Assembly (NCBI GenBank): GCA_004356615.1
Contig: SMWT01000121.1
Span: 1-37,792 of the forward strand
Source: Deltaproteobacteria bacterium
GTDB taxonomy: Bacteria; Bdellovibrionota; Bacteriovoracia; Bacteriovoracales; Bacteriovoracaceae
Length of the DNA: 37,792 bases
Reading direction: 5' to 3'
In this document: piece by piece, positions 7,715 to 18,220 of the stretch
How the letters are laid out: each line of letters starts with the position of its first letter
How positions within the stretch are numbered: position 1 is the first letter of the stretch
The notes under the pieces: generated by a model
Seen by the model: only the letters and a program-made list of their open reading frames with translations
Databases searched by the model: none
Told to the model about the DNA's origin: nothing
Position numbers and translations under genes: made by a program

Positions 7715-8434
7715 ATGGGAAAAAGCACTCCAAAAAATATTATTTCTATCACCGACTTAACTCTTATAAAACAAAGTGAAGAGATTCAAAACCTCAAGGA
7801 CCAGCACAGGAAAACCTGTGAAATGGCAGTTAGGACCATCCTGCAGGCACTTGACGCAAAAGACCATTACACCTACAACCACAGTACTAGAGTCGCCTGG
7901 TACTCCCTAAATCTAGGGCGGGAAATGGGATTTAAGGAAAAGGAGCTATATGACCTGGAAATGGCCGGTCTATTCCACGATGTTGGGAAGATAGGAACTC
8001 CAGACTCTGTTTTAAATAAGCCTACCAGATTAAATGAAGATGAATTTGAGATTATGAAGGAACATCCAGTAAAATCTGCTGAAATTCTTGAAGGATTTAA
8101 AGATTTTAAGATCATAGCCAAAATAGCCAAGCACCATCATGAAAGATTTGATGGAAGAGGCTATCCTGATGGCCTAAAGGGAGATGAAATTCCCCTTTTC
8201 TCCCGGATCATTCTTATTTCTGACACTTTTGATGCCATGACCTCTAGTCGCCCCTATCGCAAGGGCCTATCCAATAAAATTGCATATGAAGAATTGGATG
8301 AGTTTTCAGGCTCACAATTTGATCCAGAACTAGTGAAATTTTTCATCAAGGCAATGAAAAAAGAAGAACAAAAAAATGAATCTACCTTCTTTTTAAAAAT
8401 AGTCGATAAAAATTTTGCTAAGAAAGCTGCCTGA
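7715..8434 (+). CDS. HD-GYP domain phosphodiesterase-like protein
   Basis: HDVGKIGTPDSVLNKP...EHP...KHHHERFDGRGYPDGLKGDEIPLFSRIILISDTFDAMTSSRPYR. Confidence 0.9.
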   Translation: MGKSTPKNIISITDLTLIKQSEEIQNLKDQHRKTCEMAVRTILQALDAKDHYTYNHSTRVAWYSLNLGREMGFKEKELYDLEMAGLFHDVGKIGTPDSVLNKPTRLNEDEFEIMKEHPVKSAEILEGFKDFKIIAKIAKHHHERFDGRGYPDGLKGDEIPLFSRIILISDTFDAMTSSRPYRKGLSNKIAYEELDEFSGSQFDPELVKFFIKAMKKEEQKNESTFFLKIVDKNFAKKAA

Positions 8435-8435
8435 T

Positions 8436-9272
8436 TTATTTACAAAAATCAGTTTTTAGATTGGTGTTTATAAAATTGGTCTGGATAATTCGACAATCAT
8501 TTTCATTTTTATATACGTCTTTTGTAAAGCACTCAAATCCCTTGCCATTTTCCTTGGCCCATTTGAGGTTATCCCTGCAGGCAAAATAAGAGTTTTTATC
8601 TACACATGCCCAATGCTTACCTTTGCAATTATAGACTAATCCTCGACCCACTTCATCGTAAGTGGGTGGATCAACATACTCGGCCGGCCCTTTTAATTCC
8701 TCTTCTGTAGGCGCACCAATTTCTTCCACAATCTTTTCCACTTCTTTGGCCAGTTCCTGAGTTTCTTGTTTAGGTGTTGGGGGTACTGAGCTTATATCTC
8801 TTTTCACCGTTGCTTCAGGTTCTTTCACTAATGCGGGTGGTTGGACCTGAAGAACTGGTTTGGGTGCCTCTACCTTTTTAGCAGGTTTTTCTACCTGCTC
8901 TTTCTTGGCGACTTTTTTCTTGGGTGCTTTTTTAGGTTTAGAGGCCTTTTTCTTTTTGGCCCTAGTCTTTTTGACGGGTGCTTTAGGCGCATCTCCTGAA
9001 TCTTTAGTCATTTCATCAAAGGCGAAAAAGGCCACAACAATGCCAGCAGCAATTTTAATATAGAGACCTTTTTTCTTCTTGGCGGCGGCCTCTTCATCTT
9101 CCTCTTCTTCTTCTTCCTCGTCCTCTTCTTCACTTGCTTTGGTTTTTACTTCGACTTCTTCCCCTTCTGGGGTTTCCTCTGCTTCGACTTCTTCTATTTC
9201 AACATCTTCCTTTTTTCCAAAAGGAATCAGATCCATGATTTTTTCTTTTAGGGAGTTTAAGTCTAATTTCAT
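8436..9272 (-). CDS. Single-pass membrane protein with acidic N-terminus, Lys/Ala/Pro-rich TonB-like linker and Cys-containing C-terminal domain
   Basis: EEEDEEEEEEEDEE, then AAAKKKKGLYIKIAAGIVVAFFAF (TM), then APVKKTRAKKKKASKPKKAPKKK, then six C-terminal Cys. Confidence 0.65.
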   Translation of the reverse strand: MKLDLNSLKEKIMDLIPFGKKEDVEIEEVEAEETPEGEEVEVKTKASEEEDEEEEEEEDEEAAAKKKKGLYIKIAAGIVVAFFAFDEMTKDSGDAPKAPVKKTRAKKKKASKPKKAPKKKVAKKEQVEKPAKKVEAPKPVLQVQPPALVKEPEATVKRDISSVPPTPKQETQELAKEVEKIVEEIGAPTEEELKGPAEYVDPPTYDEVGRGLVYNCKGKHWACVDKNSYFACRDNLKWAKENGKGFECFTKDVYKNENDCRIIQTNFINTNLKTDFCK

Positions 9273-9346
9273 ATACAGGTCTTATCGAAAAAAAACGATT
9301 TTAATTAAATAATAAAAGCATAATTATTTAAAAACAAAGGATATTG

Positions 9347-10462
9347 CTATAGTATAAACTGGTCAAGTAATAGCGATGGGGAAAAGGGCCTCTTCCCTAT
9401 AGAAATCTTATCCCATATTTTTTGTGCCATAACATTAATCTCTGCAAGCGTTTCCCCAGATACAAAGAAAGAAGAAAATAGGCCATCTTGAGGTGAAAGG
9501 GGAATGACCCCTTTCTCATTTTGATAAAGTAAAGTTGTCAATTGCTCTAATCTAGCAGCAAAGTTTTCACATGGTGATAGATCTTTGGTCGCGAAATTCA
9601 AAAATATCCCTACTCCACCCGGAGACAGAAAGGCCCTTAGCCGGTTAATAAAAAGGCCAAAGGATTTACGGTAATTTACTTCAACTAAAGGGTAATACTT
9701 AATCTGATTTTCTTCTTTATACAAAAATGAATCAATTTGAATTAAACCCTCTGCCCCCTTTTTAAGGTATAGGTCATAAATCTTATGCTGGGCATCCCAT
9801 ATTACGTCTCTATTAAATCCCCATTTTTTTTCGATAAAGTTAAAAAGATCATTAAAATCTTTATAAACTATGCCTCCTTTAAATTTTCCATCCTTAGAGT
9901 TTAAATTCCAAAGAACTTCGACTTCACTCTGGCCAAATATAAACCCAAGATCCATCAAACGCCTAAAATAAGGGGCCATAACAAGGGATCGTTCATTTAA
10001 TCTATTTGAAAGTTTTTTTTTATTAAAATTTTTAAGCGATAGGATCAAGCTATTATTTCCCGCGGCCAAATAGGGATCCCTTATAAAATAATCCCTATCA
10101 GGATTACTTTTTAAGATTTTTTCAATATCTTCAATATTTTTTACTTCCCTGACCCCTGTGGGACAAAACCCATTTTCCTGGGCAATTTCAAGGGCGGTAA
10201 TTTTAGAATTTAACACTCTACTTTTTTCACTCAGTTCCCCCCACCAATCTTTTGGATTTAGGTCTCTAGGAGAAAGCTCAGGAATTTCAAGTCCGAGATG
10301 CTTTAAAAACTCAAGATAATCTTTTGGATAGTCTCTGATATTTTTAAGTTTTTTACCCTCAAAAAAGAAATAGATGTATTCAAATTCCTTATTAAAACTT
10401 GTTTTGCTCTCAAGCTTATAAAGCTCAGGCTCAAAATCTATATTTACAAAGTCACTGGACAT
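9347..10462 (-). CDS. ATP-grasp-like protein
   Basis: GLIQIDSFLYKEENQIKYYPLVEVNYRKSFG resembles the ATP-grasp metal-binding E-x-N segment; overlaps the upstream ferritin-like gene by 11 nt. Confidence 0.55.
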   Translation of the reverse strand: MSSDFVNIDFEPELYKLESKTSFNKEFEYIYFFFEGKKLKNIRDYPKDYLEFLKHLGLEIPELSPRDLNPKDWWGELSEKSRVLNSKITALEIAQENGFCPTGVREVKNIEDIEKILKSNPDRDYFIRDPYLAAGNNSLILSLKNFNKKKLSNRLNERSLVMAPYFRRLMDLGFIFGQSEVEVLWNLNSKDGKFKGGIVYKDFNDLFNFIEKKWGFNRDVIWDAQHKIYDLYLKKGAEGLIQIDSFLYKEENQIKYYPLVEVNYRKSFGLFINRLRAFLSPGGVGIFLNFATKDLSPCENFAARLEQLTTLLYQNEKGVIPLSPQDGLFSSFFVSGETLAEINVMAQKIWDKISIGKRPFSPSLLLDQFIL

Positions 10463-11270
10463 CCTCTCTCCGATTAAAAATCCTGTTTTCTTCGCGATAA
10501 TTTTTTATCTTCTCCACAAAAGCGGGATCAAAACCTAAATCTCGTCGAACCTGGGCATTAAAATGGATCCCCTTAGATCTAGAAGGTGAGAGATTTTCAG
10601 GCAAAAGAGATTTATAATAATCAAATAATTCCTGATCCTCTTTCCACTTATCCAAAAATTTCAGGCCTAGTTTTACGTGGGAAACTTCATCCTCAAAAAT
10701 CGCTTGCATAATCTTAGCGGAATCAAAGTCATGAACTTCACTAAATACTTCACGGTAAAAAAGGCAAAAGTCCAAATTTGCTGTTTCAAAAGTAAGAGAC
10801 ATTACTGCCAAGAATTCTTCCTTCGTATCCAAATACTTCATCTGTTTCCAGAAGAAATCATTTAACGGATAGTCACCAAACTCCACCCCAAGATCACCCA
10901 TTCTTTCAAGATACATTTTTAAATGTTTTTGCTCGTCTTTTAAGGCCGAAAGAACACCAGATTTTAGTTTCACATCATCCTTACTCTCAGTTGGAAACTT
11001 AAGCAAAAAGGCGGCCATCATCTCAATCGCTAAGAGTTCATGATTGGCAAAGAAGTGGAGCGCCATGCCTCTTTTTTCATTTTGATGAAACTGAGAGACT
11101 TTGGGGAATTTTAATTTCTCACTGGAAAACTTGAGTTGATTAGATCTTGCCGGACTGTCGGGAATGCTCTCGCCTTTCCCTAATTTAAATGAAGATCCCT
11201 CGAAGGAAGCTAGTTTATCAGCTAAGCTTGAGCTGCATAAAATATTTCGCGCAAAGTTTTCTGGCGTCAT
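10452..11270 (-). CDS. DUF455-like ferritin-fold diiron protein
   Basis: Candidate diiron ligands in order: ANHELLAIE, DEQKH, TFETANLD, EDEVSHV. Confidence 0.7.
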   Translation of the reverse strand: MTPENFARNILCSSSLADKLASFEGSSFKLGKGESIPDSPARSNQLKFSSEKLKFPKVSQFHQNEKRGMALHFFANHELLAIEMMAAFLLKFPTESKDDVKLKSGVLSALKDEQKHLKMYLERMGDLGVEFGDYPLNDFFWKQMKYLDTKEEFLAVMSLTFETANLDFCLFYREVFSEVHDFDSAKIMQAIFEDEVSHVKLGLKFLDKWKEDQELFDYYKSLLPENLSPSRSKGIHFNAQVRRDLGFDPAFVEKIKNYREENRIFNRREDVQ

Positions 11271-13834
11271 CGTCGTCGTCTTTTTTTAGATGGCCTTCCT
11301 TTTCCTTCAATTTTTTTTGGAGGGCCCCTTCTATTCCTTGAAAATCTTCGTTGCTTAAAACAGTCTTCACAAATTGCAAACTTGGAATATTCCTGCAATT
11401 TTTTGCCGCAACTATTGCAAGTGGGAACGATTTTATCAGAAAGCAGATCGTTCAGTCTTTCAATCGCCTTTCCTTTATTTTCTAAAAGGAGTTCATCATC
11501 AAATTCAAAATGTTTATTATTAAAGTGCCGTGAGAGCCACTGATACAGTTCCACACATTTTATAGAAGTCTCTAAATAATCAATATCGCCCGAATCTGAA
11601 TTAAGAGGCTCATGGAGGATTGGGCCTCCTCTTACAAAGTGATTTAAGATCCAAACATAATATTGAACATGCTCTAGGAGTCCTAAATTTACCGGGGCAC
11701 AGGCAAAACCAAAAATTTCTGAGGAACTAAGTATACTTTCTGAATCGGCATTTTCCACCATTTCTGCCAACTCGATCATCTCTTTTAAATCTACGCAGTA
11801 AAAGGGTTTTTTAAATTCCATGGTATTGAAGAGTTGGAGGAATTCAGAGAGTTTTAGTACCGGAAGGGCATGCCCCTTAAGCGCATTATTAACCTGGCTA
11901 AAAATATCCAGATCTGGACCTACCATACAATTTATTTTTTGCTCAAGGGTAGATTCCAAAGCATGTTTAATCATGTTAAGTCCATCTTCCACTCGGGTAA
12001 GACAAGATACCTTCCCTTCCGGAAACCTTTGATATCTTCCGGCCCTGCCGGCAATTTGTTTGATCTCACTCTTAGTTAAGACGTATTCTTGATTATCAAA
12101 AAACTTTGAAAGCGTTGAAAAAATTATTCTCTTAATAGGAAGATTCATCCCCATGGCGATGGCATCCGTTGATACCATAACATCGGTCTCACCCTGATCA
12201 AATTTTCTCGCCTGCTCTCTTCTTACTTCAGGACTTAACCTTCCATAAACTACAGATACTTTAAACCCCAGTCTTTCGAGATCCATTTTATACCTAAGAG
12301 CATTTCTTCTAGAAAAAACCACTAAAGCATCATGTTTTTCAAGTTCTCCAACAGTGTAAGTTCTAGGGGAGATGTTTAGATCTGTCATACGCTCATAGTA
12401 CTTTACTTCCAGGGTATCACCGCAGAGATCGACAATTTGTTGGACCAAATCAAGAACTGAAGGGTCTCCACAAATATGGACTTCCTCGGCCATAATATTA
12501 ACCAAGGCCCGGGTCCAGGCCCAGCCTCTTTGAGTATCAGTAATCATTTGAATTTCATCGATTACACAAATATCAAAATTTTCCGCCAAACGGGCCATTT
12601 CAATGGTTGAGGAATAATGAGTTGCCCCTTCTGTTTCAATGACCTCTTCACCGGTTAAAAGAGTTGTCTTAACTCCTCCCGTATTCATTGTATCGTAGAG
12701 CTCACCCGCGAGAAGTCTAAGAGGTGCGAGATAACATCCTTTTTTTGCCTTCATCAGAGTCTTTACCGCAAAGTAGGTTTTACCTGAATTGGTGGGGCCG
12801 GCGTGATAGATAATCTTTCTTTTAAGCGTCCTGGCCAGGGAGTGAATCCAAAACTCTCCTAGATATTCCTGAAGAATCTTTCCGGAGATATCCTTTCTTT
12901 TAAGTATCATCAGGGTATTAAGGAGTTTTTTAAATTCTCTTTCTAGATATTTTTCATTTTTCCAAATATTAGAGGAAAGTTGGCGAAAAAATCGGTTGTA
13001 TTCATTTTCACCTACAAGATCCTGTCTTAATCCTTGTCCTTTAAGGATATCCCTAAAAAATTTCTCTAAGGTACTTGAGTGTTCTTTAGCGAGGGCCGAT
13101 GGGTAAGTAAAATAGTTTTTTACCTGATTTTTCACCTGAGACTCGAGTCTATTAAGAGAGGATTTTTTTAATTTTTTTCTAAATCTAAAAAATAGTTTGT
13201 CGAGATCCTTTTGCAAAGAATAATAAATATTGCTTACCGCCTTGATTCCATCATCAAGACTCTCTTCAATGGCCTCTCTAGTATCTTCGATTTTTTCAAC
13301 ACACTCCTTGTAAAGAGTCTCTCTGATTCTTGATTTATAATCTGCCAAACAAACTCGGCAAAGACAGCTGAGCTCACTAGAAGAGAGATCCAAATAGAAG
13401 TTTTCCTTTAAATTATCTAAATTCTTTTGATGGGCCAATTCTTTTTTTCGCGCCCATTCCTCAAAAGACTCGCTAATCTTTTTAATTAAGTCCTCACCAG
13501 GGTTGCCATCTTCTGCAAAGGCCATTTGGGCCTTCTCAGGGAATAGATAATCATCGAGGAAACAAAGTTCGACAATATATTCCCGCCGGAAAAACTCCCC
13601 TAAAGGCATAAATTCTTTTTCAAAATCAGGAATAAAAAAAGGAAATTTTTTGAAAAACTGCCCTAGCTTGGTTTGTAGCTCGCTCAGAAATTCAAGTACC
13701 ACCTGGGCCTTTTCAATAGATCTGATGAAATCATCTTCTTCGGAAAAGGCGTTCACCTTAATAATGGTTTCGCGTTCCGTCTCTAAATATTCCTTTATGT
13801 CCTGAAAGGGAGGCAGTGGGGGTAAATTCTCCAT
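11267..13834 (-). CDS. SUV3-type (mitochondrial-like) RNA helicase with C-terminal zinc ribbon
   Basis: HAGPTNSGKTYFAVKTL, DEIQM motif II, STDAIAMGMNLP, QIAGRAGR; C-terminal CNSCGKK...CEDCFKQ and a basic tail. Confidence 0.85.
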   Translation of the reverse strand: MENLPPLPPFQDIKEYLETERETIIKVNAFSEEDDFIRSIEKAQVVLEFLSELQTKLGQFFKKFPFFIPDFEKEFMPLGEFFRREYIVELCFLDDYLFPEKAQMAFAEDGNPGEDLIKKISESFEEWARKKELAHQKNLDNLKENFYLDLSSSELSCLCRVCLADYKSRIRETLYKECVEKIEDTREAIEESLDDGIKAVSNIYYSLQKDLDKLFFRFRKKLKKSSLNRLESQVKNQVKNYFTYPSALAKEHSSTLEKFFRDILKGQGLRQDLVGENEYNRFFRQLSSNIWKNEKYLEREFKKLLNTLMILKRKDISGKILQEYLGEFWIHSLARTLKRKIIYHAGPTNSGKTYFAVKTLMKAKKGCYLAPLRLLAGELYDTMNTGGVKTTLLTGEEVIETEGATHYSSTIEMARLAENFDICVIDEIQMITDTQRGWAWTRALVNIMAEEVHICGDPSVLDLVQQIVDLCGDTLEVKYYERMTDLNISPRTYTVGELEKHDALVVFSRRNALRYKMDLERLGFKVSVVYGRLSPEVRREQARKFDQGETDVMVSTDAIAMGMNLPIKRIIFSTLSKFFDNQEYVLTKSEIKQIAGRAGRYQRFPEGKVSCLTRVEDGLNMIKHALESTLEQKINCMVGPDLDIFSQVNNALKGHALPVLKLSEFLQLFNTMEFKKPFYCVDLKEMIELAEMVENADSESILSSSEIFGFACAPVNLGLLEHVQYYVWILNHFVRGGPILHEPLNSDSGDIDYLETSIKCVELYQWLSRHFNNKHFEFDDELLLENKGKAIERLNDLLSDKIVPTCNSCGKKLQEYSKFAICEDCFKQRRFSRNRRGPPKKIEGKGRPSKKRRRR

Positions 13835-13870
13835 GACCTAATCTACCCCACCTTACTCGAGGCGTAAATG

Positions 13871-15049
13871 CTATTGATCCATCTCGAGAAGATAGCTGAT
13901 ACCAAGTTTTGCAAATTTAACTGCATGCAAGGCCCCATACTCTGATTTATCAAGGGTATCCCTACTAGAGTGGATATGAGGATTAGCATTTCTTATTTGG
14001 GCCTCAAAGGGAAAGGAGGCGGTAAATCCGGCCTGATTCCAAGAGGCGTGATCAGAGCAGGCATACCCACATCTGCCATAACTCCAGGTGGCCCCCACAT
14101 AGCGATCAATCAGTTTGGCCAAGAATCTATTTTGTTCACTTGAGGTAAAATCTGAAACCAAGGTGATATCATTGTTTGAGCCTTTGTAATTGGTCATATC
14201 AAATTGAATGACTCCTATCACATCTCGGCCTTTTAAAGAGTTGGCAACATCCCTTGACCCTCTAAGGCCAACCTCTTCAGCAGCGTAGGAGATAAACTTT
14301 AAAGTCCTTTGGGGTTTATAATTATTAGCTACCACCAACCTTATAAGCTCAGTGATAACGGCTATTCCCGAGGCATTGTCATCGGCACCGGGTGCCCTAT
14401 TGTCTTGTCTTCGCCCATACCTAGAGCCGGAGATGGAATCTCCATGGCCACCAAAGACGATAATCTCCCCAGGAGTTTTACTACCTTTAATGGTAAGGAT
14501 GACACTTGATTGCCTCCAGCTATGTTTGAACTCTTTAACCGAGATATCATTTCTTTTCTTAGTTAGTTTAGTCCAATAAGATTTGATCCATCTTTGCGAG
14601 GCCAGTCCTGTCTTGTTTTTATAGTGACGATTGGGATAGCTCGATAATTTTTCAATAACTTCAATTATCTTTTTTTCATCCACCTGCCCAAGATAGCTAG
14701 AAACTAAATCTTGCCGGTTAATGGAATAATCAACGAATAAAGAATCTTTTTTTAAAACGGGTTCAAAAACATTTTTGGCATCAGAGTAACTCTCATGAAA
14801 CATGAATCCACCACAACGATGAAACTCACTGTGCATAACTTCTGATATTTTTTCAATATCTGCTTTATTGACTTCCACAACAGCAACTTTGCCATCAGAC
14901 TTAGGTACGTATGAGATAAACTTTTCTTTTTTCAAAATAGATAAAGTATCAGCATCAACTGAGATAAAGACTTTTTCTGGGGTGCTGGCAAAGGCATTGC
15001 CTGCCATAAAAAGTAAAATAAGAATCAATTCTTTTAAAGGGAAAAACAT
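13871..15049 (-). CDS. Secreted M28 family zinc aminopeptidase
   Basis: Signal peptide; GGHGDSI, GADDNASGIAVI, AAEEVGLRGS, CSDHASW motifs of the M28 family. Confidence 0.85.
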   Translation of the reverse strand: MFFPLKELILILLFMAGNAFASTPEKVFISVDADTLSILKKEKFISYVPKSDGKVAVVEVNKADIEKISEVMHSEFHRCGGFMFHESYSDAKNVFEPVLKKDSLFVDYSINRQDLVSSYLGQVDEKKIIEVIEKLSSYPNRHYKNKTGLASQRWIKSYWTKLTKKRNDISVKEFKHSWRQSSVILTIKGSKTPGEIIVFGGHGDSISGSRYGRRQDNRAPGADDNASGIAVITELIRLVVANNYKPQRTLKFISYAAEEVGLRGSRDVANSLKGRDVIGVIQFDMTNYKGSNNDITLVSDFTSSEQNRFLAKLIDRYVGATWSYGRCGYACSDHASWNQAGFTASFPFEAQIRNANPHIHSSRDTLDKSEYGALHAVKFAKLGISYLLEMDQ

Positions 15050-15118
15050 CCTGTCCTCCTAGTTTTGTAACTCCATTTTACCAAGACTGAGACGCTCCGA
15101 GTCTAAAAATTGCTTACA

Positions 15119-15124
15119 TATAAT
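15119..15124 (+). promoter_or_regulatory. Candidate -10 (TATAAT) upstream of the nitronate monooxygenase-like gene
   Basis: Exact TATAAT in a 5' intergenic region, but no good -35; an imperfect dyad sits just upstream. Confidence 0.35.
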
Positions 15125-15195
15125 GCGACGCATTTGTAGCTTTTCTTTTGACGGGACAGAGGATAATATTTTGCCAAAATTACGGGAGAGCTAAA

Positions 15196-16224
15196 TTGAT
15201 TAATACCTGGTTAACTGAAACTTTTAAGATCAAATACCCCATCATCATGGCACCTATGTTTCTCATCTCCAACAAAGAGATGTTAATTGAAGCGGCCAAG
15301 GCGGGAATCATGGGATGTGTTCCAGCGCTGAATTGGCGAACTGAAGATGAATTCAAAGAGGATATGCTCGATCTTAAAAAAAATATCACGGGGCCTTTTG
15401 GTATTAACCTCATTGTAAATAAATCCAATATTAAATTAAAAAAGCAACTGGATGTCTGCCTCGAAATAGAACCTGACTTTATTATTACAAGTCTTGGAAG
15501 CCCGGAACAGATTATTAAAAAATTTAAGGATAAAAAAACCAAAATCCTTTGTGATGTAGTGGATTTGAATTACGCCCTAAAAGTTGAAAAACTCGGCGCT
15601 GATGCCGTTATCGCCGTCAACTCAGGGGCAGGTGGACACGCGGGGCCTGTTCCCGCCAGCGTTTTAGTACCAAAGCTAGTTAAAGGCCAAGTCCTTCCGG
15701 TTATCTCCGCTGGAGGGATTGGAACAGGGGAAGGCCTACTATCAGTATTAACTCTTGGTGCTGGTGGCGCATCTATTGGGAGTCCCTTTATCGCCGCGAA
15801 AGAAAGTCCGGTAAGCAAAGAATACAAAAATGCATGTGTTAAATATGGTGCCGAAGATATCGTTCTCACCACAAAAATATCAGGTACGCCTTGTACTGTT
15901 ATCAATACCCCTTACGTAAAAAAAATTGGTACCAAACAAAATGCCGTTGAGTCTATGCTCACAAAAAATAAAATGCTTAAAAAATATATAAAGATGCTGA
16001 CCTGGTATATGGGAACTAAGGCCATCGAAAAGGCCGCCTTTAGTGCCACTTATAAAACGGTATGGTGTGCAGGTCCATCTATTGAATTTACCAATGAGGT
16101 AGAAGCAGTATCAGATATTGTTGAACGAATGATCAGCGAATATGATAGGGCCTTTAAAAATCTAAAGGCCCTAAGTCCTTTTAATGGGGAAGTAAACCAC
16201 CCCGTTTCAAAAGGGCATGTGTAG
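15196..16224 (+). CDS. Nitronate monooxygenase / 2-nitropropane dioxygenase family
   Basis: KYPIIMAPM, GGHAGP, ISAGGIGTGEGLLSVLTLGAGGASIGSPF. TTG 15196 preceded by GGGAGAG fits the conserved N-terminus; the ORF track start is 15148. Confidence 0.8.
   Translation: MINTWLTETFKIKYPIIMAPMFLISNKEMLIEAAKAGIMGCVPALNWRTEDEFKEDMLDLKKNITGPFGINLIVNKSNIKLKKQLDVCLEIEPDFIITSLGSPEQIIKKFKDKKTKILCDVVDLNYALKVEKLGADAVIAVNSGAGGHAGPVPASVLVPKLVKGQVLPVISAGGIGTGEGLLSVLTLGAGGASIGSPFIAAKESPVSKEYKNACVKYGAEDIVLTTKISGTPCTVINTPYVKKIGTKQNAVESMLTKNKMLKKYIKMLTWYMGTKAIEKAAFSATYKTVWCAGPSIEFTNEVEAVSDIVERMISEYDRAFKNLKALSPFNGEVNHPVSKGHV
16146..16173. terminator. Perfect 11-bp inverted repeat, candidate terminator or mRNA-end hairpin inside coding sequence
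   Basis: TAGGGCCTTTA - AAAATC - TAAAGGCCCTA; 8 nt beyond the stop of the minus-strand M3 peptidase gene. Confidence 0.5.
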
Positions 16225-18220
16225 AGGGCTTTCTTCCTCTAAATTTTTCATATAATTCCATAGGATGTTCAGTTCCACCTTTTGATAAAATATTTTCTTT
16301 AAAGCTATCCGCTACTTCTGGATTAAAGATTCCCTTTTCCTTAAAAAGTTCAAAGGCATCTGCATCTAAAACTTCTGCCCATTTATAGGAATAATAACCT
16401 GAGGAATATCCGCCAGCAAAAATATGAGAAAAGGAGACACTGGTATTAACCCCTTCAACAGCAGGAAAAAGCCTAGTGGGCTCACTAACCTCTCTTTCAA
16501 AGGCATCCACATTATCTATCCCTTTAGGGTCATCCTTATGCCAGGCCATATCTAGCCTTGCAAGGCCCGCCTGTCTAACTGATGCACAACCTTCAAAAAA
16601 ACTAGCACTATCTTTTATTTTTTTAATTAACTCTTCAGGAATTTTTTCACCAGTTTTGAAGTGTTCGGCAAATAGATCTAAACATTCTTTTTCAAATGCC
16701 CAGTTTTCCATAATTTGCGAAGGAAGCTCAACGAAATCCCAAAACACATTAGTTCCTGAGGTTGAGCTATAACTACAATGTGAGAGCATTCCATGTAGAG
16801 AGTGTCCAAATTCGTGGAATAGGGTGGTCACCTCATTAAATGTTAAGAGCGAAGGTCTATCCCCACTTGGTTTGGTAAAATTACAAACAATTGAGATATG
16901 TGGCCTTTGGTCAACGCCATCTTTTGTCTTTTGATCCCTAAAACTTGTCATCCATGCTCCGCCTCTTTTCCCTGGACGAGGAAAAAAGTCAGCATAGAAA
17001 ACGCCCATGTGCTTACCACCTTTATCAGTGACATCAAAGACTTCCACATCTTGGTGATAAACAGCAACACCATCAACTTTTTTATAATTTAGTCCGTACA
17101 ATTTATGGGCAACATCAAAAACTCCCTGAAGAACTTTTTCCAGCTTGAAATAAGGCCTTAGCATTTCATCATTAATATCAAAGTTTTCTTGTTTGAGTTT
17201 TTCCTTCCAGTAACCAAAATCCCATGATTGAAGAGTTTCCGGGCCACCATTTGCTTTAGCGTACTCACTTAGCTGGACAAGCTCCTTTTTAGCAGCAGGT
17301 CTAGCATAAGAAAGCATTTCATCCAGAAAATTCATCACGGTTTTAGTATCGCCGGCCATCCGCTCTTCTAAAATAAAATCGGAATGAGAATTATAGCCGA
17401 GTAGTTGGGCCCTAACGTATCTTAGGTTGACCAACTTTTTCACGATTTCTTTGTTATCATTTTTTCCGTTTTTAAAACCCCTAGAACCAAAAGCAATGGA
17501 TAGTCTCTTTCTAAGGTCTCGGTTATCAGCATAGGTCATAAAGGGGATGTAACTTGGATAATCAAGAGTTAGGAGCCATTGTTTTTCGTAACCTTTTTCC
17601 TCCGCCATATGAGCGGCAGATTCTATGTAGGACTCCGGACAACCTTTAAGATCATCAATATTGGAAAGGATCAGCTCAAAGCTATTGGTATCATTTAAAA
17701 TGTGGTCGCCAAATAGAAGTCCCAGACTTGATAGCTCTTTGTCTAATTCCCTTAACTTTTCTTTATCTTCATGGGAGAGAAGAGCGCCATTTCTTTTAAA
17801 GTCTTTATAGGTTTTTTCAAGCAGCATTTTCTGCTCAAGACTGAGATCTGCTTCTTCCATTTTTTCAAATACTGCCTGGACTTTTTTAAAGAGCCCCTCA
17901 TCTAAAATGATATCATTTCCAAACTCGGTAACTAGGGGAGAGAAATCCTTCGCTAGCTTCGTGAGTTCATCATTGGTTTCGGCAGAGTGAAGATTAAAAA
18001 ATACTCCTGAAATGGTATAGACTCTTTCGGAAGCGTTTTCCATCGCCACGATGACATTATAAAAGTCAGGTTCATCGGTGTTATCTTTAATGTTATTTAT
18101 ATCTTCTTTGGCCTTTTTAATGGCCTCTTTAATAGCGGGTAAAAAATGTTCATTTTTTATTTTGTCGAAAGGGACGGTTTCAAATTTAGTATCAAACTTC
18201 TCCAACAAGGGATTCATCAC
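16181..18220 (-). CDS. M3 family metallopeptidase (oligopeptidase A / Dcp-like)
   Basis: LFHEFGHSLHGMLSHCSYSSTSGTNVFWDFVELPSQIMENWAFE with HExGH zinc motif. Confidence 0.9.
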   Translation of the reverse strand: MMNPLLEKFDTKFETVPFDKIKNEHFLPAIKEAIKKAKEDINNIKDNTDEPDFYNVIVAMENASERVYTISGVFFNLHSAETNDELTKLAKDFSPLVTEFGNDIILDEGLFKKVQAVFEKMEEADLSLEQKMLLEKTYKDFKRNGALLSHEDKEKLRELDKELSSLGLLFGDHILNDTNSFELILSNIDDLKGCPESYIESAAHMAEEKGYEKQWLLTLDYPSYIPFMTYADNRDLRKRLSIAFGSRGFKNGKNDNKEIVKKLVNLRYVRAQLLGYNSHSDFILEERMAGDTKTVMNFLDEMLSYARPAAKKELVQLSEYAKANGGPETLQSWDFGYWKEKLKQENFDINDEMLRPYFKLEKVLQGVFDVAHKLYGLNYKKVDGVAVYHQDVEVFDVTDKGGKHMGVFYADFFPRPGKRGGAWMTSFRDQKTKDGVDQRPHISIVCNFTKPSGDRPSLLTFNEVTTLFHEFGHSLHGMLSHCSYSSTSGTNVFWDFVELPSQIMENWAFEKECLDLFAEHFKTGEKIPEELIKKIKDSASFFEGCASVRQAGLARLDMAWHKDDPKGIDNVDAFEREVSEPTRLFPAVEGVNTSVSFSHIFAGGYSSGYYSYKWAEVLDADAFELFKEKGIFNPEVADSFKENILSKGGTEHPMELYEKFRGRKPSTHALLKRGGLLPH

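Follow-up and report, generated by a model that had tools for sequence, protein, structure and literature searches.

The 37,792-nucleotide stretch of contig SMWT01000121.1 examined here (the window) comes from a Bacteriovoracaceae-like genome of 1.86 Mb in 161 contigs that is 82% complete, and carries on its minus strand a run of three overlapping genes, encoding a SUV3-type helicase, a ferritin-like diiron protein of the DUF455 family (PF04305) and a protein resembling ATP-grasp ligases. Here we describe which of these genes belong together and what chemistry they may carry out. The helicase gene (11267..13834; 855 residues) comes first, followed by the DUF455 gene (10452..11270; 272 residues) and the ATP-grasp gene (9347..10462; 371 residues), which are the first and second halves of what we call the pair; all three start with ATG. 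By their open reading frame coordinates, the helicase stop and the DUF455 start overlap by 4 nt (11267..11270), and the DUF455 and ATP-grasp genes by 11 nt (10452..10462), the same boundary that forms the joint of gene fusions in other families of the phylum. An earlier interpretation made from the letters of the window only, which we refer to as the sequence-only reading, had described this overlapping three-gene operon with exact coordinates. A good Shine-Dalgarno sequence precedes the ATP-grasp start (CGGAGAGAGG-ATG) and none lies ahead of the DUF455 start, as would be expected if the latter is reached by translational coupling. With starts taken mechanically from the longest open reading frames, the DUF455 and ATP-grasp genes are separated by -32 to +26 nt in 23/23 named-record loci of Bacteriovoracaceae, and the SUV3 and DUF455 genes by -35 to +12 nt in 22/23 (850 nt in the remaining one); given 23 loci of the family, such tight spacing is not chance.

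Outside Bacteriovoracaceae (family f1 of our survey, with 129 genomes; the other families of the phylum are numbered f2, f9 and so on), the DUF455 and ATP-grasp genes are found joined into one. Uninterrupted open reading frames encoding 594-802 residues, in which the N-terminal 260-300 residues are DUF455 and the ATP-grasp part is C-terminal, were seen directly in ten loci of families f2, f9, f11, f14, f22 and f26. In a further genome (G358) both profile matches fall within a single 721-residue frame, which indicates a seventh fusion family, f27, and two more fusions (L138 and L139) are cut by contig ends. Within Bacteriovoracaceae, where the genes are separate, they are kept or missing together: 98 genomes have both, 28 have neither and 3 are discordant. 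Of these three, the one with ATP-grasp alone (G029) holds a paralogue located in a different cluster, and a finer search of the two with DUF455 alone recovered the ATP-grasp partner in one (G068). Four genomes (G040, G056, G061 and G127) retain the surrounding block, made up of varying subsets of the M3 and M28 peptidase genes, SUV3, a gene of the kind found at 8436-9272 of the window and an HD gene, with exactly DUF455 and ATP-grasp missing from it. In another (G044), DUF455 has been relocated and the ATP-grasp gene is still beside SUV3, so that both have been kept although separated; the relocated gene (L153:7048-7866) lies beside genes resembling those of the 2-oxoglutarate dehydrogenase complex, with the ATP-grasp gene on another contig.

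Our survey of co-occurrence covered draft genomes of two phyla, the second of which is probably Chlamydiota, including a locus whose record is titled Verrucomicrobia (L074). Among 234 genomes of this second phylum, ATP-grasp is present in 79 and DUF455 in 79, with 70 genomes having both, 146 neither and 18 only one (Fisher p=4e-39, in a test that ignores shared ancestry). Here the genes are unlinked, the ATP-grasp gene standing beside apparent murA, ispF and ddl genes and DUF455 behind the gene for an SH3-domain protein; across loci L184-L213, a conserved protein of about 390-430 residues with bacterial SH3 domains usually precedes DUF455. Because of the fusions, the joint presence and absence in Bacteriovoracaceae, the co-occurrence of unlinked genes in the second phylum and the single DUF455 clade described below, the functional unit is very probably the DUF455 and ATP-grasp pair, whose members are evolutionarily linked whether adjacent, fused, or unlinked yet co-occurring. 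Had the three genes no functional link at all and merely shared the conserved synteny of one family, as the synteny of the whole block (M28 peptidase, SUV3, the pair, the 8436 gene and the HD gene) across Bacteriovoracaceae might suggest, neither the fusions and joint presence or absence nor the unlinked co-occurrence would be accounted for; as a reading of the pair this is refuted by the fusions and the unlinked co-occurrence, it holds for the helicase, and as an account of the locus it is very improbable. We found no description of the pair in the open-access papers searched.

The helicase stands in a different relation to these two genes. As the sequence-only reading had recognised, it is SUV3-like: its DEXQc_Suv3 domain scored 208.8 bits (Pfam cut-off 27) and Helicase_C 55.2 (cut-off 23.5), a phmmer search against solved SUV3 structures returned E=6e-74, and SUV3_C stayed below its Pfam cut-off, at 16.2 versus 27 bits. 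From these profiles the protein appears to be a bacterial SUV3-like helicase rather than a SUV3 of the mitochondrial type. In Bacteriovoracaceae, 89 of the 98 ATP-grasp genes lie within 5.5 kb of the SUV3 DEXQ domain and the other 9 are on a different contig; SUV3 is, in other words, adjacent in 89/89 cases with both on one contig, and because of this adjacency and the tight spacing, helicase and pair are likely to be co-transcribed in this family. Elsewhere they part company. SUV3 is present in 120/129 genomes of the family versus 3/240 other genomes of the phylum, and in 0/28 of the pair-carrying genomes tested from the second phylum, and 20 Bacteriovoracaceae genomes have SUV3 but no pair. 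Outside the family, the fusion loci have no adjacent SUV3 except in one genome (G330, locus L138), where the helicase gene, of SUV3 type but divergent (about 35% identity), lies head-to-head with a fusion, 27 bp apart; this runs counter to the independence of the helicase. The fusion is cut by the contig end, and no other SUV3 linkage was seen beyond Bacteriovoracaceae.

The adjacency of the helicase in Bacteriovoracaceae and the head-to-head gene of G330 speak for the coupling of helicase to pair that the sequence-only reading had put forward. On the whole, though, that coupling is not supported: the pair is kept without the helicase outside Bacteriovoracaceae, in fusions and in the 28 second-phylum genomes, and the helicase is kept without the pair in 20 genomes inside it. 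The SUV3-free pairs and pair-free SUV3 genomes rule out the helicase as a required part of the functional unit; it stays a stable operon neighbour, and its adjacency is best explained as family-level conserved synteny. The same result bears on an operon centred on RNA, in which the helicase would open RNA, the DUF455 protein hydroxylate a base of transfer or ribosomal RNA, in the manner of MiaE, and the ATP-grasp protein add a group to that base. Overlapping genes, a SUV3 neighbour in every same-contig case of the family, the head-to-head gene of G330 and the frequent position beside YebC of DUF455 genes that lack an ATP-grasp partner (solo DUF455s) in other families would all fit such an operon, but SUV3 is missing from the second-phylum pair genomes tested and nearly absent from the phylum outside Bacteriovoracaceae, many family members have SUV3 without the pair, and the G330 helicase is divergent and differently oriented. 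Identity as a MiaE-type hydroxylase was likewise rejected, as MiaE gave no sequence match at E<=1 (Pfam) and was not among the 50 best fold matches. Because the helicase coupling is not supported, the MiaE-like RNA modification raised by the sequence-only reading is not supported either, and we regard it as improbable; its second suggestion, an oxygenase-ligase pathway to which the helicase is unrelated, gains support from the conservation of the pair without the helicase. An anti-phage defence system was also considered and set aside, PADLOC giving generic helicase matches only and none for DUF455 or ATP-grasp.

The middle protein belongs to DUF455, as had been proposed from its sequence (149.8 bits versus a Pfam cut-off of 34.3), and its AlphaFold model, with a predicted local distance difference test score (pLDDT) of 93.9, is a bundle of long helices (residues 64-91, 97-126, 150-178 and 182-209). 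The predicted diiron site spans the codons of residues 77-198 (10677..11042, minus strand) and comprises H77-E78, E83, E113xxH116, E162 and E195xxH198. The segments HE / EQKH / FE / EDEVSH, singled out in the sequence-only reading as diiron ligands, hold up in every group examined: E78, E83, E113, H116, E162, E195 and H198 are 100% conserved in each of four groups, which together hold 89 DUF455 proteins, and H77 is 100% conserved in the ATP-grasp-linked groups only, with Ile instead in the solo subfamily. From this conservation the protein is predicted to have the complete ferritin-type diiron ligand set (E, ExxH, E, ExxH), in which the metal-binding Glu of helix A would be either E78 or E83. 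In the DUF455 tree, a 100/100 branch sets the solo DUF455s apart from all the ATP-grasp-linked proteins (those of Bacteriovoracaceae, the fusions and the second phylum), which form one clade, and DUF455 falls into at least two clades, one of them with a strict ATP-grasp partner. In other families of Bdellovibrionota, solo DUF455 genes (L125, L127, L129, L130, L131, L133, L137 and L144) repeatedly lie divergent to an adjacent YebC/TACO1-like gene, with SufE-like, RsuA/RluB-like, 6-pyruvoyl-tetrahydropterin-synthase-like and SDR genes close by, all named by eye; these neighbours hint at a different role, possibly one related to pterins or translation.

We found no function for DUF455 in the open-access papers searched, where most of the DUF455 text matches examined were to longer names such as DUF4559 and DUF4551. 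The nearest match of DUF455 in both fold and profile is aldehyde-deformylating oxygenase (ADO), at a weak E of about 7e-3, and since the fold matches are weak, it is from the ligands that we infer the chemistry of an oxygenase and not of a ferroxidase or peroxidase. If the DUF455 protein were instead an iron-storage, ferroxidase or peroxide-scavenging protein of the rubrerythrin or Dps kind, linked to the ATP-grasp protein only through stress regulation, the bacterioferritin and Dps-like proteins among its fold matches and its weak EncFtn-like and ferritin profile scores would be explained. Three findings argue against that role, to which we attach little probability: DUF455 is fused directly to the domain of an enzyme, its nearest matches by profile and fold are to an oxygenase, and its co-occurrence with ATP-grasp is near-obligate in two phyla.

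No Pfam or NCBIfam model scored above its cut-off for the third protein of the window, and its relatives reach only weak ATP-grasp scores in curated family models. Structure prediction gave a clearer picture and bore out the ATP-grasp fold proposed for 9347-10462 in the sequence-only reading: an AlphaFold model built with 25 homologues (pLDDT 92.4) matched the ATP-grasp peptide ligase 8ynd best in a Foldseek search of the PDB (E=4.9e-14), with SAOUHSC_02373 (E=4e-12), PurK and the PGM1-type ligase 3wvq (E=3e-10) among the further top matches. There were 337 PDB matches at E<=0.001, and the top ones were all ATP-grasp. The LVEVNYR segment, noted earlier as ATP-grasp-like, contains the conserved ExN metal-binding motif (E261-V-N263-Y-R265; 9668..9682, minus strand). 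N263, R265 and D244 are invariant in 69/70 relatives, the remaining one having a gap, and E261 is kept in 65/70, with D in 4; more broadly, the nucleotide- and metal-site residues K87, K/R128, D244, E261, N263 and R265 are conserved, the window having R128 versus K in most relatives. The protein is thus confidently predicted to have an ATP-grasp fold with conserved catalytic residues.

As to its activity, a family profile that includes more distant members (A5) matches PurK (E=6e-5) and, weakly, 8ynd (E=0.0025), and the NCBIfam model for L-aspartate-L-methionine ligase (LdmS) matches relatives from the second phylum (E=2e-6), Bacteroidota (E=8e-8) and the fusions (E=9e-5). Because of these profile matches, together with the PDB fold matches and the conserved residues, amide-ligase chemistry is the leading candidate activity, and we judge the chances that the protein performs ligase-type chemistry on amino acids or peptides to be somewhat better than even. 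A phosphoribosyl or PurK-like role was rejected; PurK is near in fold and profile, but no purine context was found. Distant or paralogous ATP-grasp genes occur in other settings. One on a plasmid of Streptomyces sp. BB1-1-1 (L242) is clustered with radical SAM, acyl carrier protein, Gfo/Idh/MocA and condensation-domain genes, and two paralogues of the window's ATP-grasp protein lie in clusters that look biosynthetic, one adjoining a carbamoyltransferase gene (L038:6631-9278, in G028) and the other in one reading frame with a carbamoyltransferase (L043:7335-9974, in G029).

Putting the two proteins together, we consider it probable, at roughly 0.6, that a DUF455 diiron oxygenase or oxidase and an amino-acid-ligase-like ATP-grasp enzyme form a two-component system working on a shared substrate. 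L-amino-acid ligases activate a carboxylate as an acyl phosphate and then couple it to an amine. By this scheme the DUF455 protein would use O2 to hydroxylate or desaturate the substrate or to cleave a C-C bond in it, and the ATP-grasp protein would turn a carboxylate into an acyl phosphate and join it to an amine in an amide or related bond. Both would act in turn on the same small molecule, which is probably an amino acid or a short peptide, and the SUV3-type helicase, probably co-transcribed in Bacteriovoracaceae, would have a separate job.

Several observations weigh against this scheme. The fold matches of the DUF455 protein are weak, at E=7e-3 for the best of them, and solo DUF455s without ATP-grasp exist, in Bdellovibrionaceae. 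In the second phylum 18/234 genomes have one partner only, some of which incomplete assemblies may explain, and the co-occurrence tests take no account of shared ancestry. ATP-grasp enzymes may also be kinases or carboxylases, and with PurK a near match of the window protein such chemistry is possible for the fold. Finally, some ATP-grasp relatives, in Bacteroidota and Streptomyces replicons, have no DUF455 in the region of the match, so that a protein with the ligase fold need not have an oxygenase as its partner; these relatives are consistent with a ligase able to serve other pathways.

A different target is conceivable. The ATP-grasp protein might, like RimK, attach an amino acid to a side chain or to the end of a protein, with the DUF455 protein hydroxylating the same site. 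The fusion of an ATP-grasp fold with an oxidase-type domain would suit such protein modification, as would a pair that is constant, single-copy and housekeeping-like, with most loci free of biosynthetic-cluster neighbours; no gene for a target accompanies the pair, however, and the nearest characterised ATP-grasp relatives are ligases of free amino acids, which leaves protein modification unlikely. Elongation factor P (EF-P) was tried as a modified target and gained no support from a small sample, its tip loop reading NPGKGSAF in 5/5 EF-P proteins recovered (from 3 pair-minus and 2 pair-plus genomes).

More tentatively than for the two-component system itself, we suggest that a conserved diiron oxygenase of the DUF455 family, which serves an ATP-grasp amide ligase and is often joined to it in one protein, produces a cofactor, signal, or protein or lipid modification that is new, derives from an amino acid and is common to predatory Bdellovibrionota and Chlamydiota-like bacteria. 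Were this so, a metabolite or modification shared by predatory and chlamydia-like intracellular bacteria would represent new biochemistry. A DUF455 clade with a strict partner of predictable activity, ATP-dependent ligation, makes the open question of DUF455 function directly testable, and the fused proteins, such as the one of 657 residues in L105, offer a ready stoichiometric complex for enzymology and structure. The result also warns against placing the SUV3-type helicase in the pathway.

In the wider neighbourhood, the pair is embedded in a block (7715-18220) that is syntenic across Bacteriovoracaceae and consists of genes for an HD-domain protein, a protein with a Cys-rich tail, ATP-grasp, DUF455, SUV3, an M28 aminopeptidase, a nitronate monooxygenase and an M3 peptidase; within it, the DUF455 and ATP-grasp pair is the part gained and lost. 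The gene downstream of the pair (8436-9272), also syntenic across the family, encodes an acidic, Lys/Pro-rich product that belongs to no Pfam family; it probably has a membrane segment, and its C-terminal domain of about 80 residues is conserved and contains Cys. The nearest named record to the window is QNFX01000002.1, and other family relatives are Bacteriovorax, Halobacteriovorax or Bacteriovoracaceae by name; QNFX01000002.1 itself (L051) carries the full Bacteriovoracaceae block under the title 'Epsilonproteobacteria bacterium', a label that looks wrong.

Among known systems, the window DUF455 protein is a member of DUF455/PF04305 and COG2833 with the full ligand set, but in a distinct ATP-grasp-tied clade, unlike the solo DUF455s, which have neither H77 nor an ATP-grasp partner. 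ADO, a diiron ferritin-like oxygenase, has the closest solved fold, but a fused homologue scores only 14.8 bits against the Pfam cut-off of 28 and 13.7 against the NCBIfam cut-off of 222.65, the window protein has no match, and no acyl-ACP reductase gene lies near the window's DUF455 gene. For the ATP-grasp partner, SAOUHSC_02373 of Staphylococcus aureus (7r8p/7r8q), which we take to be LdmS (NF047900), has the fold in common and is among the best PDB fold matches of the window protein, and one relative of the latter matches 7r8p by sequence (E=0.018). Relatives reach 21-31 bits versus an equivalog cut-off of 475, however, and the window protein has no match. Pederick et al. (2022; cited in PMC13338154) reportedly described the LdmS enzyme, and we know of no diiron partner for it. 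The Streptomyces ATP-grasp peptide ligases (8ynd and the PGM1-type 3wvq) are the best structural matches, at about 11-14% identity, and act in peptide antibiotic pathways, whereas the window pair lies in no obvious biosynthetic cluster. Closest in its combination of chemistries is the pairing of heme-oxygenase-like diiron oxidases (HDOs) with ATP-grasp ligases, as in the natural-product cluster for mangotoxin, where the HDO MboA occurs with the ATP-grasp ligases MboC and MboD and the substrates are amino acids (PMC13185094). In both cases a diiron oxidase is paired with ATP-grasp amino-acid ligase chemistry, but the oxidase has the HDO fold there and the ferritin/DUF455 fold here, and where HDO pairs belong to natural-product clusters, the pair described here is conserved, single-copy and sometimes carried on one polypeptide.

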